A DNA stretch of 64,000 nucleotides from Hydrogenophaga taeniospiralis CCUG 15921 (GTDB lineage Bacteria > Pseudomonadota > Gammaproteobacteria > Burkholderiales > Burkholderiaceae_C). Position numbers and translations under genes: made by a program. Where the stretch lies: assembly GCF_001592305.1 (NCBI RefSeq), contig NZ_BCWR01000006.1, positions 310,001-374,000 of the forward strand. Reading direction: 5' to 3'. The stretch's first letter is position 1. The number at the start of each line of letters is the position of its first letter. Below the pieces are notes generated by a model that was not told the DNA's origin, did no database searches, and saw only the letters and a list, made by a program, of their open reading frames with translations. This document shows, piece after piece, positions 37,608 through 60,176 of this stretch.

Positions 37608-37751
37608 ACACGCCTTTTCGCCCACGCCCGCTGTACGAAAACTTCACGCGGGGCGCATGATCTCCAGCCAGAACGATCCCCCACTGCCCCAGCCCGGCCC
37701 CCGGGTCGCCTGACGACCCCCGGGCGCGTGCACCACCGGCGCGAGAGCCCC

Positions 37752-40430
37752 ATGGACAAACACTACCTCACCCCCCTCTTCCAGCCCGACACCATCGCGG
37801 TGTTCGCGGGCAAGTCCGACGAGCCCGACACCCAGACCCCCCAGGCCCGGGGGCTGCTGGCCGCGTTGCGCGCGCAGCGCTTCAAGGGCACGCTGGTGTT
37901 CCTGGACATCCACACCACTGGCACCCTGGCCGATCTGGCGCAGACCCGCGCCGACCTGGCCATCATCGCCCTGCCCCCGCTGGAGGCCATCGCCGCGCTG
38001 GAGGTGGCTGGCCGCATCAAATGCCGCGCCGCGCTGGTCATCGGCAGCGGCACGCCGGCCCTGGAAGCCGCTGAAATGCACCGCGTGGCGCGCCGCCACG
38101 GCATGCACCTGCTCGGGCCCAACAGCCTGGGCCTGCAGCGCACGCGCTGCCTGCTCAACGCCAGCGTGGCCGGGCCGCTGGCCGCGCCCGGACCGCTGGC
38201 CCTGGTGTCGCAGTCGGGCGCGCTCACCGCCTCCATCCTCGACTGGGCCACCGAAAACGCCGTGGGCTTCTCCACCGTGGTCTCGCTCGGCCCCAACACC
38301 TCGGTGGACATCGCCCAGGTGCTCGACTTCCTCGCCTCCGACGCCCAAACGCACAGCATCGTCGTCTATCTGGAAGGCATTTCCAGCGCCCGGCGCTTCA
38401 TGAGCGCGCTGCGCGCCGCCGCCAACGCCAAGCCGGTGATCGTGCTCAAGGCCGGCCGAAAGCCCGCCGGCAACCTGGCCGCGCAGACCCACAGCGGTGC
38501 CATCGTCGGCGCCGACGACGTGTTCGACGCCGCCCTGCGCCGCGCCGGTGCGGTGCGCGTGCGCTCCTTCGTCGAGCTGTTTTCGGCCTCCAAGTGCCTG
38601 GCCTCGCGCTACCGCCCGGTGGGCAAGCGCCTGGCCATCGTCACCAACGGCGGCGGCCCCGGCGTGCTCGCCGCCGACTGGGCCAACGAAATCCAGCTGG
38701 AGCTGGGCAAGCTCTCGCCCGAAACCGCCCAGGCCCTCAAGCCCCAGCTGCCCGCGCTGGCCTCGCTCACCGACCTGATCGACCTGTCGGAAGAAGCCAA
38801 CGCCGAGCACTACCGCGCCGCGATCGACGCCGCCGGCCACGAAAAAGCGGTGGACGGCATCCTGGTCGTGCATTCGCCCAAGGCCGGCATCGACCCCACG
38901 GCGGTGGCCCAGGCCATGGCCGAGCTGAAGAAACGCCTGGGCAAACCGCTGCTGTGCTGCTGGATGGGCAGCGCCTCGGTGGCCGCCGCGCGCGAGGTGC
39001 TGGCCAGCGCCGCCATTCCGAGCTTTCGCACGCCCGAGGCCGCCGTGGGCGCCTTCGGCAACATCGCCAGCTTCTACCAGAACCAGCAGCTGCTGCAGCA
39101 GACCCCGCCGCCCCTGTCCACCCTGGCCAAACCCGACATCGAGGGCGCGCGCCTGCTGATCGAAAACGTGCTCACCGAGCGGCGCAAGGTGCTCACCGAG
39201 ATGGAGTCCAAGTCCCTGCTCTCGGCCTTCCACATCCCGGTCACCCAGACCATCCTGGCGCGCAGCGCCAACGAAGCCATGATGATCGCCACCCAGCTGG
39301 GTTACCCGGTGGCGCTGAAGATCGACTCGCCCGACATCAGCCACAAGAGCGACGTCAACGGCGTGGCGCTCAACGTGCTCAACGCGGTCGGTGTGCGCGA
39401 CATCTACAACACCATGATCCAGGCCGTCACCAAGGCCCAGCCCGGCGCACGCATCAACGGCGTGACGATCCAGAAGATGGCGCGCAACAAGCGCGGACGC
39501 GAACTCAACGTGGGCCTGGTCACCGACGACCCCTTCGGCCCGGTGATCGCGTTCGGTGCCGGCGGCACCATGATCGAGCTCATCAACGACCGCGCCATGG
39601 AGCTGCCCCCGCTCAACCAGTTCCTGGCGCGCCGCCTGATCGACCGCTCGCGCGTGGCCGAAACCCTGGGCGAGTGGCGCGGCGCCAGCGCGATCAACCG
39701 GGACGCGCTGGAACACGTGCTGCTGCGCGTCTCGGAAATGGTCTGCGAGCTGCCCCAGCTGCGCGAGATGGACATCAACCCCATCATCGTGGACGAATCG
39801 GGCGCCGTGGCGGTGGACGCGCGCATCGTGATCGACAGCGCGCCGGCCACGGCGCGCAACTACGCCCACCTGGCCATCCTGCCCTACCCGGCGCGCTACG
39901 AGCAGATCTGGCCGCTGCGCGGCGGTGGCGAATACACCATCCGCCCGATCCACCCGGACGACGCTCAGATGCTGCAGGACCTGGTGCAGAACCTGTCGCC
40001 CGAGAGCCGCTATTTCCGTTTCGTGTCCTCGCTCAAGGAACTGCCCGCGTCCATGCTCTCGCGCCTGACCCTGATCGACTACGACCGCGAAATGGCCCTG
40101 GTAGCCATCCACCGCAGCCGCCAGGCCGATGCCGACGGCGGGATCGTGGAGACCGAACGCGTCGTCGGCGTGTCGCGCTACATCACCAACCCCGACAAAT
40201 CGAGCTGCGAGTTCTCGCTGGTGGTGGCCGACGACTTCAACGGCAAAGGCCTGGGCTCGCGCCTGATGCTCAGCATCATGGAAGAAGCCCGCGACAAGGG
40301 CCTGACCGAGATCGAGGGCCTGGTGCTGGCCAACAACCCCGGCATGCTCAAACTCATGAAGGGCCTGGGCTTCACGGTCAAGACCTTTCCCGAAGACGCC
40401 GACTTCAAACTGGTCACCCACAGCCTGTGA
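37752..40430 (+). CDS. pat: Pat-type protein lysine acetyltransferase (acyl-CoA synthetase-like plus GNAT)
   Basis: The 892-residue protein has a CoA-binding domain (about 10-130), a succinyl-CoA-ligase-like domain with SQSGALTASILDW and LKAGRKPAGNLAAQTHSGAI (about 150-460), and an ATP-grasp domain with GYPVALKIDSPDISHKSD (about 480-700). A C-terminal GNAT domain (about 730-892) shows YEFSLVVAD-like ESCEFSLVVADDF and GKGLGSRLM for acetyl-CoA. This is the domain order of E. coli YfiQ/Pat, which acetylates acetyl-CoA synthetase and others. The catalytic His of acyl-CoA synthetases is not evident, consistent with a regulatory NDP-binding half. A strong terminator follows. Confidence 0.92.
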   Translation: MDKHYLTPLFQPDTIAVFAGKSDEPDTQTPQARGLLAALRAQRFKGTLVFLDIHTTGTLADLAQTRADLAIIALPPLEAIAALEVAGRIKCRAALVIGSGTPALEAAEMHRVARRHGMHLLGPNSLGLQRTRCLLNASVAGPLAAPGPLALVSQSGALTASILDWATENAVGFSTVVSLGPNTSVDIAQVLDFLASDAQTHSIVVYLEGISSARRFMSALRAAANAKPVIVLKAGRKPAGNLAAQTHSGAIVGADDVFDAALRRAGAVRVRSFVELFSASKCLASRYRPVGKRLAIVTNGGGPGVLAADWANEIQLELGKLSPETAQALKPQLPALASLTDLIDLSEEANAEHYRAAIDAAGHEKAVDGILVVHSPKAGIDPTAVAQAMAELKKRLGKPLLCCWMGSASVAAAREVLASAAIPSFRTPEAAVGAFGNIASFYQNQQLLQQTPPPLSTLAKPDIEGARLLIENVLTERRKVLTEMESKSLLSAFHIPVTQTILARSANEAMMIATQLGYPVALKIDSPDISHKSDVNGVALNVLNAVGVRDIYNTMIQAVTKAQPGARINGVTIQKMARNKRGRELNVGLVTDDPFGPVIAFGAGGTMIELINDRAMELPPLNQFLARRLIDRSRVAETLGEWRGASAINRDALEHVLLRVSEMVCELPQLREMDINPIIVDESGAVAVDARIVIDSAPATARNYAHLAILPYPARYEQIWPLRGGGEYTIRPIHPDDAQMLQDLVQNLSPESRYFRFVSSLKELPASMLSRLTLIDYDREMALVAIHRSRQADADGGIVETERVVGVSRYITNPDKSSCEFSLVVADDFNGKGLGSRLMLSIMEEARDKGLTEIEGLVLANNPGMLKLMKGLGFTVKTFPEDADFKLVTHSL

Positions 40431-40495: not shown

Positions 40496-40508
40496 CTTTG
40501 TCCCTTGC

Positions 40509-40732
40509 TATCTCTCTATCTTCTTTAATTCAAATTAGTAGCAGTAGTAGAAGGGCCCGTTTTCTGTGGACAAGGCGCTTTTCCCGTAGCGCGACAAGCA
40601 CTTGGCGACCGTACAAGCGTGTGCAAACCGCCCCGCTGCCCAAATCCCGAAACGGGGACAACCCGGCCTTGGGTGCCTCATCTGTGGATAACGAAAGGCT
40701 TGTTAAAAAGTTAATCACAGGGTTGTGATCAA
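40509..40732 (+). other. Replication-origin-like module, copy 1 (DnaA-trio plus DnaA boxes)
   Basis: In order: AT-rich stretch 40509-40535; DnaA-trio array TAGTAGCAGTAGTAG (40536-40550); a GC-rich spacer; DnaA box TGTGGACAA (40565-40573); an intermediate block whose bases 40607-40661 are identical to copy 2; consensus DnaA box TGTGGATAA (40683-40691); then weaker boxes TTAATCACA (40711) and TGTGATCAA (40724). This is the order of a bacterial basal unwinding system. No protein gene lies in 40496-41446. The sequence 40733-41095 between the copies holds only a 10-bp direct repeat (GTTTGGACCA twice, 40915-40934). Confidence 0.7.
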
Positions 40733-41095
40733 GCTCCGGGCGAAGGCCTGGCCAAGCGGGCCCGACACCAGCTCCCAAGCACCCAGCCGCTGCTTTCTGC
40801 CGCCAGCACACGGCCGAACCTCTTGGGCCACGGTCAGGACGGCTGGCAGGTCCAAAGAAGGCCCCCACCCCCACGGAGCACCCGGAAAGACCACCTGGGG
40901 GCTTCCAGCCGCTGGTTTGGACCAGTTTGGACCATGGAAACAGGTCCCGAAACCCGTTCCCAACCCTTGACCAGGCCCGAAACATCTACAACCCCTGGAA
41001 AACCGCCTCACCCGTTGACCGCCAGGCCATGAGTCGGTCGGGCCGGCATCCCGGGTGCCCCAACGAGGGAGAGTCCGGTTTCCGCGGCTGTTCTC

Positions 41096-41319
41096 TTATC
41101 TCTTATTTCCAATTATTCAAATTAGTAGCAGTAGTAGAAGGCCCTGTTTTCTGTGGACAAGGCAGGTTTTTCCTAGCGCGACAAAGACTTGATGACCGTA
41201 CAAGCGTGTGCAAACCGCCCCGCTGCCCAAATCCCGAAACGGGGACAAGTGTCGGTTTTCCACTGTTTCTGTGGATAACACATGGTTTGTTAGAAAAATA
41301 TCCACAGGGTTGTTGTTAA
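41096..41319 (+). other. Replication-origin-like module, copy 2
   Basis: It repeats copy 1 collinearly with an offset of exactly 587 bp at every landmark: trio array 41123-41137, TGTGGACAA 41152-41160, identical block 41194-41248, TGTGGATAA 41270-41278. A better inverted box ATATCCACA (41298-41306) replaces the weak one of copy 1, and its AT-rich tract (from about 41090) is longer. The flanks diverge, so it is an old or selected duplication rather than a recent one. Confidence 0.7.
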
Positions 41320-41446: not shown

Positions 41447-42391
41447 CTATCTCAAACTCAGCTGGGCGAAACCCCAGGTCATGCCCAGGCCGTGCAGCAG
41501 CGTGGCCGCCACGGTGAGGGCGAGTGCCGGTTTCAGCCGCTGGGGTTGCCGGGCATGCCACAGCAACCAGACCAGCGCCGCCAGCGACAAGGGCAGCGAC
41601 ACCAGGCCCCAGAGCGCCTGGGTGGGCGGGATCAACAGCCAGACACTGGCCACCAGCCACAGGTGGGCGCCCACCACCAGACCCCCGTAGAGGGCGCTGG
41701 CGCCCACCGGCCCGAGCCGCACCACCAGGGTGCGTTTGCCCACCCGGGCATCGGCCGCCGCGTCGGGTATGCCGTTGATCACCAGCAGCGCGGCCACCAT
41801 CAGCGCGAACCCCGCAGCCACGCTGGCCGGGATCACGAAGAACTGGCGCCGCTGCACATAGTCGGCGCCGATCACCACCAGGAACCAGGTCAGCGCCACC
41901 GTGAGCTCACCCAGCCCACGCGACATGAGCTTGAGCGGTGGTGCGGAGTAGGCCCAGGCCAGCAACAGACCGGCCATGCCCAGCAGCAGCACACCGCCTC
42001 CGGTCTTCACCGCCAGCAGCAGGCCGGCCGGCACCAGAAACAGCAGCAGGGACTTGGCCAGATCGGCCGTTTCACGTTCGCTCACCACGCCGCTCTGGAT
42101 CAGCCGCGAGCCGCCGGTGAAGGGAAAGATGCCCTGGGTGTTGGCCGCGTCCGCGCCGTTGCGCGCGTCGTGCAGGTCGTTGAGCACGTTGCCAGCGGCG
42201 TGGGCCAGCACCGCCAGCGCGGTGGCCCCCAGCGCCAGCGGCACGTCAAACCCGCAACCGCAGGCCGCTGCCGTGGCCGTGCCCAGGGCACAGGCCACCA
42301 CCGTGAGCAGCAGAAAGGCCGGGCGCGTCATGCGCACCAGCAGGCCCAGGCGCGCCAGCCGGGTCGGGGGTGGGTTGGGGGCATTTCTCAT
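41447..42391 (-). CDS. UbiA-superfamily prenyltransferase
   Basis: The 314-residue integral membrane protein has the first Asp-rich motif NVLNDLHDARNGAD (about 65-78) and the second GIPDAAADARVGKRTL (about 195-210), with roughly eight hydrophobic helices between and after. These bind Mg-prenyl-diphosphate. The shape GGSRLIQSG after the first motif is MenA-like (1,4-dihydroxynaphthoate prenyltransferase). No other men gene is visible, so another aromatic acceptor is possible. The start at 42391 sits before RLARLGLLVRMTRPAF, the usual start of helix 1. Confidence 0.8.
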   Translation of the reverse strand: MRNAPNPPPTRLARLGLLVRMTRPAFLLLTVVACALGTATAAACGCGFDVPLALGATALAVLAHAAGNVLNDLHDARNGADAANTQGIFPFTGGSRLIQSGVVSERETADLAKSLLLFLVPAGLLLAVKTGGGVLLLGMAGLLLAWAYSAPPLKLMSRGLGELTVALTWFLVVIGADYVQRRQFFVIPASVAAGFALMVAALLVINGIPDAAADARVGKRTLVVRLGPVGASALYGGLVVGAHLWLVASVWLLIPPTQALWGLVSLPLSLAALVWLLWHARQPQRLKPALALTVAATLLHGLGMTWGFAQLSLR

Positions 42392-42595
42392 ACAGGGGCC
42401 AGTATGCACCGGCGTCCCCGGTTCGGGGCCGGTCCGATGGCCCGGGCGGCTGGGCCGTGTGGCGTGAAAACACGTGTGCTGACAGCTCTCACAGGAGGTC
42501 ACGCGCCCCTCTTGGGGGCCTGGGGGGTGGCTGGTAAACTGCCCGCTTTATAGGGCCTGGCAGCGGCTGGCCCCGATCGGCCCCCGTACTGCCCC

Positions 42596-43360
42596 ATGTC
42601 CACCACCCTCAGCGCCAGCGCGCCCTCCACCTTCGAGATCAAGAGCGCCAACCTGCCACTGGTGGCCCTGCTGCTCAAATCCGCCGATCTCACCCGCCTG
42701 AGTGCGGAGTTCGCCCAGCGTTTTGGCGACGTGCCCGATTTCTTCGACCACGATCCTCTGGTGGTCGATCTGTTTCCCCTGCAGGTGTTCGAGCCCGGCG
42801 CCGCGCTGGATGTGGGGGCCCTGTGCGCGCTGTTGCGCCAGTACCGCCTGAACCCGCTGGCCGTGCGCGGCGGCAACGACGAACAAATGGCCCTGGCCCT
42901 GGCCGCCGGCCTCACGCCCGCGCCCGAGGCCACCGTGCAGCGCCCGGCGCCGGCCGCACCCATCACCGCGGCGGCACCCCTGCCCGAACCGGTTGCCCAG
43001 CCACAGCCAGCGCCCGGTGCCCTGGTCATCGACAAACCCCTGCGCTCGGGCCAGCAGGTCTACGCGCGTGGCCGCGACCTGGTGGTCATGGCCATGGTCA
43101 ACCCCGGTGCCGAGGTGATCGCCGACGGTCACATCCACGTGTACGCGCCGCTGCGCGGCAAGGCCATCGCCGGCGCGCGCGGCAACGTCGACGCCCGCAT
43201 CTTTGCCCTGTCCATGGCGCCCGAGCTGATCTCCATCGCCGGCATCTACCGCACCAGCGAAGTGGCCCTGCCCGAGGCCATCCAGGGCAAGCCGGCCCAG
43301 GTGCGCCTGGTGCCCGGCCCCGATGGTGACAAGCTCGTGATCGACCCACTGTCCGTCTGA
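42596..43360 (+). CDS. minC: Septum-site inhibitor MinC
   Basis: The 254-residue protein has an N-terminal MinC_N domain (about 8-105, FEIKSANLPLVALLLKSADL) that inhibits FtsZ. An Ala/Pro linker leads to the beta-helical C-terminal domain (about 145-254; LRSGQQVYARGRDLVVMAMVNPGAEVIADGHIHVYAPLRG) that binds MinD. This domain pair blocks division at cell poles. It is the first gene of minCDE, spaced 124 bp from minD. Confidence 0.95.
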   Translation: MSTTLSASAPSTFEIKSANLPLVALLLKSADLTRLSAEFAQRFGDVPDFFDHDPLVVDLFPLQVFEPGAALDVGALCALLRQYRLNPLAVRGGNDEQMALALAAGLTPAPEATVQRPAPAAPITAAAPLPEPVAQPQPAPGALVIDKPLRSGQQVYARGRDLVVMAMVNPGAEVIADGHIHVYAPLRGKAIAGARGNVDARIFALSMAPELISIAGIYRTSEVALPEAIQGKPAQVRLVPGPDGDKLVIDPLSV

Positions 43361-43484
43361 GCGTCGGAAAGGTCTTTCGTCCATGCCCGCCCCGCACGCC
43401 CGAAACACACCGCCGTTCTGATACCGGCACCCACCCGCTCCTGTTGCCTTCCGTCTCCACCCCGATCCTGAAAGACCCCTCACC

Positions 43485-44300
43485 ATGACCAAAATCGTTG
43501 TCGTCACCTCCGGCAAAGGCGGGGTTGGCAAGACCACCACCAGCGCCAGCTTTTCCACCGGCCTGGCCCTGCGCGGCCACAAGACCGCCGTGATCGATTT
43601 CGACGTCGGCCTGCGCAACCTGGACCTGATCATGGGCTGCGAGCGCCGCGTGGTGTACGACCTGATCAACGTGATCCAGGGCGAGGCCAACCTGAACCAG
43701 GCGCTGATCAAGGACAAGCAGTGCGACAACCTGTACGTGCTGGCCGCCAGCCAGACCCGCGACAAGGACGCGCTGAGCCAGGAAGGCGTGCACAAGGTGC
43801 TGACCGATCTGGCCGCCATGGGCTTTGAATACATCGTCTGCGACTCGCCCGCCGGCATCGAGACCGGGGCCCTGATGGCCATGCACTACGCCGACGAAGC
43901 GCTCATCGTGACCAACCCCGAGGTCTCCAGCGTGCGCGATTCCGACCGCATCCTGGGCATGCTGGGCAGCAAGACGCAGCGCGCCATTGAAGGCAAGGAT
44001 CCCGTCAAGGAACACCTGCTGATCACGCGCTACAACCCCGGGCGCGTGGCCGACGGCCAGATGCTCAGCCTGGAAGACATCCAGGACATCCTGCGCATCC
44101 AGCTCATCGGCGTCATTCCCGAGAGCGAAAACGTGCTCACCGCGTCCAACCAGGGCACGCCCGCGATCCACCTCAAGGGCACCGACGTGGCCGAGGCCTA
44201 TAGCGACGTGATCGACCGCTTCCTGGGCGCCGAAAAACCCCTGCGCTTCATCGAGGCCGAGAAGGCTGGCTTCTTCAAGCGCGTGTTCGGAAGGAAGTGA
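43485..44300 (+). CDS. minD: Septum-site ATPase MinD
   Basis: The 271-residue ParA-type ATPase carries the deviant Walker [11 protein letters not shown] (residues 9-18), Walker A' [11 protein letters not shown], and DSPAGIE as Walker B region. The C-terminal amphipathic membrane-targeting helix [13 protein letters not shown] ends the chain. MinD recruits MinC and oscillates under MinE control. It overlaps no neighbour but minE starts 3 bp after its stop. Confidence 0.97.
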
Positions 44301-44302
44301 GC

Positions 44303-44563
44303 ATGTCCTTCCTGTCCTTCTTTCTGGGCGAGAAAAAGAAGACCGCCAGCGTCGCCAAGGAGCGGCTGCAGATCATCCTGGCGCACGAGCGCAGCGGGCG
44401 CAATGCCTCCGAGCCCGACTACCTGCCCGCCTTGCAGCGCGAGTTGGTGGCCGTGATCGGCAAATACATCAAGATCAATCCGGACGACATCAAGGTCATG
44501 CTGGAGCGCCAGGACAACCTGGACGTGCTCGAAGTCAAGATCGAACTGCCCGACCGCAAGTAA
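44303..44563 (+). CDS. minE: MinD/MinC topological regulator MinE
   Basis: The 86-residue protein has an N-terminal membrane helix [21 protein letters not shown], the anti-MinCD region [11 protein letters not shown] (about 22-32), and the topological domain [17 protein letters not shown]. The ATG at 44303 is used rather than a GTG two codons earlier because AAGGA lies nine bases upstream of it. It ends the min operon and converges with the ribokinase-like gene. Confidence 0.95.
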
Positions 44564-56614: not shown

Positions 56615-57238
56615 ATGGACCCCGCCACGCCCGTCACCCCCATCCCCACCGCCCACTCCTGGTTCGACGACATCCACGCGCTCATCGCCGGCTCGCTCTT
56701 CGTCGCGCTGGGCATGACCATGTTCGGCCACGCCGGCCTGCTCACCGGCGGCGTCGCGGGCGTGGCCTTCCTCGCCAGCTACGCCAGCGGCCTGGCCTTC
56801 GGCCTGTTCTTCTTCCTGTTCAGCCTGCCGTTCTTCGTGCTCTCCTGGGTCCGCCTCGGCCCGGTGTTCACCTTCAAGAGCTTCGGCGCCGTCGCCCTCG
56901 TGTCCGCCTGCACCACGCTGGCGCCCAAGGTGGTGCGCTTCGAGCTGCTCAACCCCTGGGTCGCCTCGGTTTTAGGTGGCTTCCTGATCGGCTTTGGACT
57001 GCTCGCCCTGCTGCGCCACCAGGCCAGTGTGGGCGGCGTCAACATCCTCGCGCAATGGCTGCAGCAGGCCAAAGGCATGAGCGCCGGCAAGGTGCAGATG
57101 TCGGTCGATCTGGTCGTCGTGCTCGCGGCGTTCTGGGTGTTGCCACCCATCCAGGTGGCGCAATCGGTGGTGGGCGCGGTGGCCATCGGCGCCATCCTCG
57201 CGCTCAATCACCGGCCGGGGCGGTATCTGGGGGTCTGA
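56615..57238 (+). CDS. YitT-family membrane protein
   Basis: The 207-residue protein has about five or six helices: ALIAGSLFVALGMTMFGHAGLLTGGVAGVAFL, FFFLFSLPFFVLSW, and VGGVNILAQWLQQA which is a YitT motif. Function unknown (some members are called transporters). The TTG four codons earlier is an alternative start. Confidence 0.8.
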   Translation: MDPATPVTPIPTAHSWFDDIHALIAGSLFVALGMTMFGHAGLLTGGVAGVAFLASYASGLAFGLFFFLFSLPFFVLSWVRLGPVFTFKSFGAVALVSACTTLAPKVVRFELLNPWVASVLGGFLIGFGLLALLRHQASVGGVNILAQWLQQAKGMSAGKVQMSVDLVVVLAAFWVLPPIQVAQSVVGAVAIGAILALNHRPGRYLGV

Positions 57239-57474
57239 GCGGGTTGTTGGCTGGTCCGGAGGCCCGTTGGATTGAAAGTGGGATCGCTAATCGCGACTTC
57301 ATTCCATGAGGTTGTTTTTCATGAGCAAAGCGCAATAGCTTTCCCCCTGAGGTTCTCGAACACGCTGTTCGTGTGGTGTGTAAGCACCGAGGCAAATGCC
57401 AGCCCCTCATTGAATGTGTGATGCGCAACCAGAAAGAAGCTTTAAAGAATGTTGGCTGATCAGCATCGACAGAC
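57239..57474. other. AT-richer spacer between YitT-like and acyltransferase genes
   Basis: 236 bp without a gene; marks the start of the lower-GC patch. It holds a short imperfect dyad around GATCGCTAATCGCGA (57284-57298). No promoter could be assigned. Confidence 0.4.
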
Positions 57475-58644
57475 TCACGTGGCAACGGGCACCGCAGATG
57501 GCCTTCCAAATCTGGCCAAAACGGTCGCTGAGAACTTGCGCCCCCATGCAACTGACGGCCGCTCGATCCACCGCTCGCTGATCCAGGCGAGGGGCCAGGT
57601 CAGGAGTAGCGAGATCAGTCCCACGAGCAAACCCGCTTCCAGTGCGTATGTTTTGGTCCATGTCATCGCGTCGGTAAACGCCCACAGTAAATAGAGGACC
57701 GGGACGTTTAGTAAGTAGAGGCTGAAACTGATGCGACCGAGTGCCTGTGCACATCGCCCCTCCAGCAGCGCCGCAAGAGAGCCTCGTTGGCCATAAAGAA
57801 GGCCCGCGACAAGAAAGGCTGCTGAAAGTCCCATGGATACCAACGCGATCAGCGAAGAATGCGGATGAAACGTCCGGCAAAAAATAAGAACCACAAGGGC
57901 CAGCCACCATGATGACGCCGGCGCTTGTTGAATTAGAGGGCGCAATAGAGGTTCTGAAGCTAGCATGCCTGCCATGAAGGCAAACAGGTAGGCGTGCATA
58001 TTCGGCAGGTTGAACGCCAAGCGAGAGAACTCCAACGCCAGCATTGCATAAATGAATGCCATGACCAGTCCGGGCAAGCCAAGGTATCGGCGCAATAGCC
58101 AAGCGGCCAAAACGAACGGAATCACCAACACTTCAGCCTGAATGGTCGCGCTCGGTCCGTGCATGGAGATTTTCAGAAGTAAACCGTTCTCGATGACTTG
58201 CCAAAATTGAAATTGAGGATAGCCGGGGATGCCGATCATGCCCATGGCGTAATACAGCACCAGACAAGCGATCAGTGGGGGGTATAAGCGCAGAATTCTG
58301 GCACCAGAAAATGCCATGCATGTAACCAGCCACCGCTCTTCGTTGCGCCGTTCGAGTGACCGGCATAGAACGGCACCACTCAATACGAAAAAAACATACA
58401 CCGCCGTCTCGCCGTTCAATAGAACGAGTGCCAGTTTGGTCAAGGCATCGCGGAAGTTTGACGCAACTTGAAGAGGTGGATATAGAACTCGATTGATTAA
58501 AGAAAGATCATTGTGGAGGATTGCATGGTAAAAAACCACGGCTGCTGCCGCAAAGCCTCTTAGACCATCCAGCGCATGTGATCGCCCAACCGGACTTTTA
58601 TCTTCAAGAATCATTGCTTGCATAGTCCCATTGCATGAAATCAT
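57475..58644 (-). CDS. Acyltransferase_3-family membrane O-acyltransferase
   Basis: The 389-residue protein has about ten hydrophobic helices, starting with SHALDGLRGFAAAAVVFYHA (the R/H active-site element of OafA/NodX-like acyltransferases). GISFSLYLLNVPVLYLLW and ETAVYVFFVLSGAVLCRSL also fit. It O-acylates a surface glycan, most likely. The gene is clearly AT-richer than its neighbours and lies alone next to debris, so it was probably acquired. Confidence 0.85.
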   Translation of the reverse strand: MISCNGTMQAMILEDKSPVGRSHALDGLRGFAAAAVVFYHAILHNDLSLINRVLYPPLQVASNFRDALTKLALVLLNGETAVYVFFVLSGAVLCRSLERRNEERWLVTCMAFSGARILRLYPPLIACLVLYYAMGMIGIPGYPQFQFWQVIENGLLLKISMHGPSATIQAEVLVIPFVLAAWLLRRYLGLPGLVMAFIYAMLALEFSRLAFNLPNMHAYLFAFMAGMLASEPLLRPLIQQAPASSWWLALVVLIFCRTFHPHSSLIALVSMGLSAAFLVAGLLYGQRGSLAALLEGRCAQALGRISFSLYLLNVPVLYLLWAFTDAMTWTKTYALEAGLLVGLISLLLTWPLAWISERWIERPSVAWGRKFSATVLARFGRPSAVPVAT

Positions 58645-59114
58645 GACTTGAAGCGTGGAGGTGGAAAGAGTGCGTCGTGGCAGGTGAGCAGCCGGCTGGT
58701 TTGTTCCAACAGCGTGCCCATCGCGCTGGCGTTGACCCTCTCTTGATGAGATCGCCCAGAAAGTAGCGTATCAGACCGAACAGATTGCCATCACGGTGGA
58801 CGGTTTTGCCGATGGCGCCTGGGTGGGGTGCTTTGCATCTGCGGACCTTACGCGGTGACAGGTGTTGCACTTCAGACTTGAACCCGTCCTTTCCATTTTC
58901 GGCTGGCTGCAGAGCGCGCTTCCGTATGAGCCAACCAAGCTGAACCTCAAGACCCATTTGCAAACTATGGCCGTTGGCGAGCGGCCCACCACTACCCTGG
59001 AAGCCACAGACCAGACCACCCGCTGTCTCTCGAGCAACGCCATGGCATCACAATGGCGTGTGTCCAGCAAATGGCCGAAGCTGCCTTGCACGTTGGGCAT
59101 CTCGAAGACGACCT
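58645..59114. other. Lower-GC debris region without an intact gene
   Basis: 470 bp with several short frames on both strands, none with recognisable domains or ribosome sites. Together with the fragment at 59115 it looks like the decayed remainder of an acquired segment. No inverted-repeat ends or transposase motifs were found. Confidence 0.4.
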
Positions 59115-59222
59115 ATGACGAATCTCACGACCCTGTATCGACCCACCGGACCGGAAGAACTCGAGGCGCTCAACGAGAGCATCGTCGGCTCGATTGAGGT
59201 CATCGCCGAGTTCACGGCATGA
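59115..59222 (+). pseudogene. Probable N-terminal gene fragment (LYRPTGPEELE)
   Basis: The 35-codon frame starts MTNLTTLYRPTGPEELEAL. This resembles the opening of proteins annotated ADP-ribosylation/crystallin J1 (LYRPVGxxELE), then continues differently (NESIVGSIEVIAEFTA) and stops. It overlaps the next gene by an ATGA. It may be a real short peptide, but truncation fits the debris around it. Confidence 0.4.
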
Positions 59223-59491
59223 CCGAGCCGCCTTTTCCCATGCGGCCCTCGCATTCAACAGGCTCCCGCCGTTTGGGTGTGGCGCTTCTGTTGTGTGCTT
59301 TCGCGGCACTCGTTGGCGGGGCGTTCATTTTGTGGCCGGTGTGTGTTCCGCTGTCCGCGGAACAGGTCGCAGCATCTCAACCGCCCATCTCGGAGCGCAA
59401 TGACACCTACCTGTTCGGGCGCATGTTTCAGCAGGACGCCGGGCAGTGGTACCAATGCAAAACCCGCATCGCCAGAGCGTTGTTCTTCTAG
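59219..59491 (+). CDS. Small membrane-anchored protein, unknown
   Basis: The 90-residue protein has one hydrophobic helix (LGVALLLCAFAALVGGAFILWPV, about 19-41) and a polar C-terminus with a lone Cys. No family recognised. Its ATGA overlap with the fragment upstream suggests these were once an operon pair. Confidence 0.5.
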   Translation: MTEPPFPMRPSHSTGSRRLGVALLLCAFAALVGGAFILWPVCVPLSAEQVAASQPPISERNDTYLFGRMFQQDAGQWYQCKTRIARALFF

Positions 59492-59510
59492 CCACGACGT
59501 CCGCGTCACA

Positions 59511-60176
59511 TCACTTCACTTCGGTCGCGAACTGCTCCAGTGGCCGGCGCACTTTCTTCAGGTTCACCAGCCAGTCGCCTTCGTCGGCGCGGTAGCCCAG
59601 CGGCAGGATCGCGACGCTGCGCAGGCCGCGCTCGCGCAGCTTCAGGATCTCGTCGAGCTTGGCCGGTTCGAAGCCTTCCATGGGCGTGCTGTCCACTTCT
59701 TCGAAAGCGGCGGCGATCAGGGCGGCGCCCAGGCCGATGTAGGCCTGGCGCGCGGCGTGCTGGAAGTTCACTTCGGCGTCGCGCGGCGGGTAGGTCTTGA
59801 GCAGCAGCTGGCGGTAGTTTTCCCAGCCTTCGTTGGTGCCGCCGCGCTGCTCGTTGGTCAGGTCGAACATGTGGTTGATGCGCTCGGGCGTGTAGTTGTC
59901 CCAGGCGGCGAACACGAGCAGGTGCGAGCCGTCGGTGATCTGCGCCTGGTTCCAGGCGATGGGCTGGATCTGCTCGCGCACGGCCTTGCTGGTGACGACG
60001 ATGATCTCGTACGGCTGCAGGCCGCTGGAGGTGGGCGCCAGGCGTGCGGCTTCGATGATGCGGTCCACCTTGTCTTGCGGCACGGCCCGGGTGGCGTCCA
60101 TCTTTTTGGCGGCGTAGCGCCATTGCAGCTTGTCGAGCAGGACGGGGGCGTGGGTGGGTAACGACAGGTCGCTCAT
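59511..60176 (-). CDS. NAD(P)H-dependent nitroreductase
   Basis: The 221-residue NfsB-type flavoprotein has FMN motifs RYAAKKMDATRAV near 19, RLAPTSSGLQPYEIIVV (about 45-61), and the C-terminal VAILPLGYRADEGDW. It reduces quinones or nitroaromatics by two electrons. AAAACGGAGAACCCC before the ATG gives the ribosome site. Physiological substrate unknown. Confidence 0.9.
   Translation of the reverse strand: MSDLSLPTHAPVLLDKLQWRYAAKKMDATRAVPQDKVDRIIEAARLAPTSSGLQPYEIIVVTSKAVREQIQPIAWNQAQITDGSHLLVFAAWDNYTPERINHMFDLTNEQRGGTNEGWENYRQLLLKTYPPRDAEVNFQHAARQAYIGLGAALIAAAFEEVDSTPMEGFEPAKLDEILKLRERGLRSVAILPLGYRADEGDWLVNLKKVRRPLEQFATEVK

Follow-up and report, generated by a model that had tools for sequence, protein, structure and literature searches.

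Two tandem DnaA-trio unwinding modules in a probable chromosomal replication origin of Hydrogenophaga, displaced from dnaA

An intergenic stretch of about 1 kb in Hydrogenophaga taeniospiralis CCUG 15921 carries two tandem copies of a replication-origin module, and we conclude, with a probability of roughly 0.88, that this region is the chromosomal oriC of Hydrogenophaga, displaced from dnaA and equipped with two complete tandem unwinding modules. The argument is drawn from sequence: the modules themselves, their conservation throughout the family, their displacement from dnaA, a skew step at the module in relatives and the conservation of both copies. The stretch of DNA analysed (the window) comprises 64,000 nucleotides, positions 310001-374000 of contig C6, and all positions below are those of the window unless a contig is named. 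An original prediction for this DNA had offered three explanations, namely oriC itself, a doubled unwinding element or a DnaA-titration site.

The two copies lie in tandem, and all of their landmarks are separated by a constant 587 bp. This offset, claimed at the outset, is borne out by two sets of direct repeats with that spacing, 40517-40661/41104-41248 (145 nt, 88% identity) and 40681-40735/41268-41322 (55 nt, 76% identity). Each copy presents, in order, AT-rich DNA, TAGTAGCAGTAGTAGAAG trios, an 11-bp spacer, TGTGGACAA (at 40565 and 41152), the weak GGGGACAA, TGTGGATAA (at 40683 and 41270) and an inverted box; the AT-rich DNA, trios, spacer and DnaA boxes that had been predicted for each copy are all in place. 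The region and its neighbours are as follows.

37728..40430, plus strand: left neighbour, an acyl-CoA synthetase/acetyltransferase-like gene with a Pat-like C-terminal domain
40508..40535, plus strand: module 1, AT-rich DNA unwinding element (7th least stable 30-mer of the 412-kb contig)
40536..40553, plus strand: module 1, six DnaA-trios (TAG TAG CAG TAG TAG AAG) read from the sequence, the TAG repeats conserved genus-wide
40554..40564, plus strand: module 1, GC-containing spacer of 11 bp, read from the sequence, under the 16-bp limit of PMC8287927
40565..40573, minus strand: module 1, trio-proximal DnaA box TTGTCCACA (box scan, alignment)
40654..40661, plus strand: module 1, internal weak DnaA-box-like site GGGGACAA, genus-conserved (alignment columns nearly invariant)
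40683..40691, minus strand: module 1, consensus DnaA box TTATCCACA, 118 bp from the first box (box scan, alignment)
40711..40719, plus strand: module 1, inverted degenerate box TTAATCACA (sequence)
40720..41094, no strand: inter-module spacer, less conserved (82% versus 94%, G000 versus G066)
41095..41122, plus strand: module 2, AT-rich DNA unwinding element (5th least stable 30-mer of the 412-kb contig)
41123..41140, plus strand: module 2, six DnaA-trios (sequence, genome string search)
41141..41151, plus strand: module 2, GC-containing spacer of 11 bp (sequence)
41152..41160, minus strand: module 2, trio-proximal DnaA box TTGTCCACA (box scan)
41241..41248, plus strand: module 2, internal weak DnaA-box-like site GGGGACAA (alignment)
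41270..41278, minus strand: module 2, consensus DnaA box TTATCCACA (box scan)
41298..41306, plus strand: module 2, inverted DnaA box ATATCCACA (box scan)
41447..42400, minus strand: right neighbour, a UbiA/MenA-type prenyltransferase gene
42596..44563, plus strand: minC-minD-minE, beyond the prenyltransferase gene

The original prediction was right both in placing minCDE beside the modules and in finding no dnaA in the window; dnaA lies at C6:394033-394515. Elsewhere in the window, the GC content dips to 0.56-0.58 at 57001-60000 against surroundings of about 0.68, possibly a mobile or recently acquired segment.

A chance repeat is ruled out by the 587-bp repeat spacing, the profile scores and the uniqueness of the elements in the genome. 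The trio string TAGTAGCAGTAGTAG has its only occurrences in the 5.27-Mb genome at 40536 and 41123, and the window holds seven DnaA-box matches (at most one mismatch) where 2.2 are expected, a number reached in 0 of 100 shuffles; since the trio string is found just twice and the box count exceeds that of every shuffle, we exclude chance as the source of the arrangement. Five of the seven box matches fall inside the two copies, and both AT-rich arms belong to the seven 30-mers with the lowest stability in the 412-kb contig. The module profile recognizes both copies with E values of about 1e-40, detects no third match in the window and, when run against the whole genome, returns exactly these two. 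A reading of the region as structured RNA was dropped after a search of Rfam gave no match.

The order of elements had been equated with the basal origin unwinding system (BUS), and at the level of sequence both copies conform to it. In the established system, DnaA bound at the trio-proximal box seeds a filament along the trios of a single strand, opening the AT-rich DNA, and a candidate is recognized by at least three trios, a spacer of at most 16 bp and a near-consensus box (PMC8287927). Each copy has six NAN trios beside AT-rich DNA and, across the 11-bp spacer, a correctly oriented box with one mismatch to TTATCCACA.

The module is not peculiar to this strain. Relatives turned up in 29 of the 60 genomes covered by a DNA search, every one belonging to the window's own genus, and an alignment of 33 copies revealed a fixed architecture in which the positions of trios and boxes are invariant. 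When the sequence profile was applied to the genus, the family and the order, at least one module was found in 63 of 67 Hydrogenophaga genomes and in 288 of 301 genomes of the family (111 of 115 genera), so that we regard it as the oriC module of the family; the comparison across the family that the original prediction had called for thus comes out in its favour, and with it the module is conserved at the origins of related chromosomes. Beyond the family, an order-wide sample gave weaker matches in 15 of 120 genomes. A strict trio-spacer-box pattern, searched for in named records, was found mostly in Hydrogenophaga and also in Malikia, Simplicispira and Giesbergeria. In one genome from another family of the order, three tandem module matches lie about 0.6-0.8 kb apart (G414:C1 1853645-1855241).

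The classic place of oriC is between dnaA and dnaN, and in three other genera the module is found in exactly this intergenic region, as one copy in G171, two convergent copies in G222 and two copies in G232. In those Hydrogenophaga genomes in which the module and dnaA could both be placed, the module is situated between dnaA and mnmG, 43 kb from dnaA in this genome and 49-121 kb in relatives. The distance from dnaA had been called unusual; instead, it is general in the genus and common in the family, the module being tens of kb or more from dnaA in 11 of 16 genomes with both located. Upstream of its own dnaA the strain has two facing DnaA boxes 50 bp apart (L003 2404-2465), a pair also present in G001, G007 and G025 that probably serves dnaA autoregulation. 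Inspection of the sequence and the profile search found no trio, AT-rich element or module match at this dnaA locus, and we rejected an origin beside dnaA in this genome, where the two facing boxes stand without a module. The direction of dnaA transcription, towards the module, counts against the module as origin.

Strand composition was examined as a further mark of an origin. These genomes are GC-rich, and their raw GC skew is weak. Relative to the module, the best step lies at +0.4 kb in G005, +0.05 kb in G007, -7 kb in G001 and, weakly, -4 kb in G024; for G025 and G000 the distance is 28-30 kb, and G022 gave no informative step. Orientation-corrected skew at fourfold sites is 0.007 to the left of dnaA, 0.004 from dnaA to the module and 0.071 beyond the module, and in all seven genomes examined, our own included, it is higher beyond the module than in the dnaA-module interval, which places the upward step at the module and not at dnaA. 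These seven genomes are not fully independent because they belong to one genus and share synteny. In the complete genome G005, the samples show positive skew between the module and about 2.5 Mb, 950 kb excepted, and negative skew from 2.75 Mb onwards, so that the opposite switch lies about half a chromosome away. The skew check proposed originally is therefore answered in two ways: the corrected step falls at the module in 7/7 genomes, but the raw minimum of the strain's own contig lies 12 kb away from dnaA and 31 kb from the module and does not discriminate between them. KOPS-like GGGHAGGG motifs also disagree with the corrected skew and the relatives' step positions. In the dnaA-module interval (G000, G001, G005, G007, G022, G024 and G025) they are distributed 62:18, oriented towards the module as they are beyond it. 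The interval thus combines a strong KOPS-like polarity with a corrected skew of about zero, two polarity signals in conflict, and the former would fit an origin nearer to dnaA.

These observations bear on two alternatives. The modules could be a datA-like locus that titrates DnaA, with the true origin at dnaA, a proposal that draws on the pair of boxes upstream of a dnaA 43 kb away, the KOPS-like polarity of the interval and the own-genome skew minimum closer to dnaA. We consider this very improbable, given that the dnaA locus lacks any trio, AT-rich element or module match, that the relatives' skew step is at the module and that other genera have the module at dnaA-dnaN; titration as the sole function, one of the options first offered, is disfavoured because each copy contains a complete unwinding element. 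The second alternative, which is compatible with an oriC at the modules and which we judge evenly balanced, is that the ancestral origin of the family was at dnaA and later moved, the interval retaining its old polarity. A skew near zero alongside a forward KOPS-like polarity would agree with this, as would the dnaA-dnaN module of several genera and the finding that complete genomes of another family (G393, G433) have the module close to their start. Displacement is seen in many genera, however, so the move would not be recent for the genus. On such a history the interval between dnaA and the module may once have been replicated from the dnaA side and have adjusted only partly since.

Possession of two modules, also thought unusual at first, is in fact frequent: 102 of 301 sampled family genomes (34%) have at least two. 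Most members of the genus have one. Among the matches listed, 27 multi-module genomes have two places on the same contig, 0.3-10.2 kb apart (11 of them under 1 kb), with 24 pairs in direct and 3 in inverted orientation. In three Hydrogenophaga genomes, G088 (C64 39193/79149), G071 (C115 107622/120043) and G023 (C90 23018/37008), the two modules are not in tandem but 12-40 kb apart, and they may represent distinct start sites or a pair that was rearranged. Tandem spacings within the genus are clade-specific, at 587 bp in G000 and G066, 382-383 in G060, G069 and G031, 319 in G025, G067 and G080, 518 in G015 and about 571 in G002. In a tree of the copies from the genus, copies cluster within clades, with four groups supported at 0.94-1.0, a pattern that suggests at least four independent tandem duplications unless early gene conversion mimicked it.

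Copies in the same position in close species (G000/G066, G060/G069, the G025 group) are mostly 92-95% identical, with one pair at 90%, whereas spacer identity between close species is 76-87%. Within one genome the copies are only 68-82% identical, and where two pairs were inspected, the differences fall outside the trios and main boxes. Given this better conservation of each copy over the spacer, and a divergence of 18-32% between the copies of one genome, both appear to be old, constrained and under selection, and this conservation makes it likely that both modules are in use. Alternatively, only one module could be working as the origin, its partner being a duplicate that is decaying or has a regulatory role, as a DnaA sink or timing element beside oriC. 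We regard this as possible but doubtful. A single module suffices for most of the genus, tandem duplications recur, and the inverted box of module 1 is degenerate (TTAATCACA), better versions being found in other members such as G005 and G007. A decaying copy, on the other hand, would be expected to lose its unwinding element, and the two copies are about equally conserved (94.0 and 93.6% identical between G000 and G066; 90-94% in the G025 group) and keep their trios and main boxes. Taken with the conserved module, its dnaA-dnaN location elsewhere and the skew step, the conservation of both copies lends good support to the first two of the original options, oriC and a doubled unwinding element.

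If the region is oriC, DnaA would bind and melt the modules and replication would start here in this strain. We propose that DnaA occupies the box next to the trios together with the second one, at a distance of 118 bp, and that the intervening DNA is probably bent, in many members by an IHF-like protein. A ATCAAnnnnTTG-like motif between the boxes is conserved and resembles an IHF site in many members, where it may act as one; in this genome it is degenerate. An ATP-DnaA filament would nucleate on the first box, extend over the TAG trios of one strand and melt the adjoining AT-rich DNA for helicase loading, as in the BUS; loading and regulation of DnaA would fall to the boxes farther away. 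A tandem pair would use the same strand twice, at sites separated by 587 bp, and a convergent pair such as that of G222 would use opposite strands. The two modules may then be used as alternative or cooperating unwinding sites inside one origin.

With the BUS of Bacillus subtilis oriC (boxes 6/7, GC spacer, trios and AT-rich DNA) the modules share the order, the strand and the types of element; unlike it, the Hydrogenophaga unit is complete twice over, has a single proximal box and a second strong box at a fixed 118 bp, and does not adjoin dnaA. Escherichia coli oriC likewise has an AT-rich unwinding element, a flanking strong box, an IHF site and further boxes, but it is present in single copy, and we know of no TAG-trio array in it as long as that of Hydrogenophaga. 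Two DnaA-box clusters in one origin region are also found in the oriC1-dnaA-oriC2 arrangement of Helicobacter pylori and other Epsilonproteobacteria; in H. pylori, unwinding is found only in oriC2 (PMC5043019), whereas the Hydrogenophaga parts are copies of one another, each with an unwinding element and with no dnaA between them. Complete elements in both parts set the region apart from a bipartite origin in the H. pylori sense, with its one unwinding part. Nor does it fit a datA-like titration site of boxes without an unwinding element, as AT-rich DNA and trios are present in both copies. Closer to hand, chromosome 1 of Cupriavidus metallidurans CH34 has its skew switch, at the predicted origin, about 90 kb from dnaA, adjoining a 213-nt cluster of DnaA boxes (PMC2864759), and so shares displacement from dnaA at a skew switch; module duplication is not among the features described in the available part of that account. 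Burkholderia cenocepacia oric1 shares DnaA boxes, an AT-rich block and an IHF site, and its description, as far as available to us, does not list repeated complete modules. Our search of the open-licence literature returned nothing relevant on duplicated oriC modules or on a Hydrogenophaga oriC. While a BUS-type oriC is already known, the repetition of complete unwinding modules in one origin appears to be new, in that known bipartite origins have one unwinding site and we found no published description in that literature.

More tentatively, and with somewhat less than even confidence, we suggest that the family has a widespread class of origin with at least two complete, separately competent modules, arranged in tandem, convergently or up to about 10 kb apart, that were repeatedly gained and are kept by selection. 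If this is true, a single origin with two DnaA-trio melting sites could set initiation frequency or permit two helicase-loading events, which touches on two open questions, the loading of the second helicase in bidirectional replication and the wide variation in origin layout. Natural origins with one and with two modules inside one genus are ready-made comparisons, and the family-wide profile locates oriC directly where dnaA is no guide.
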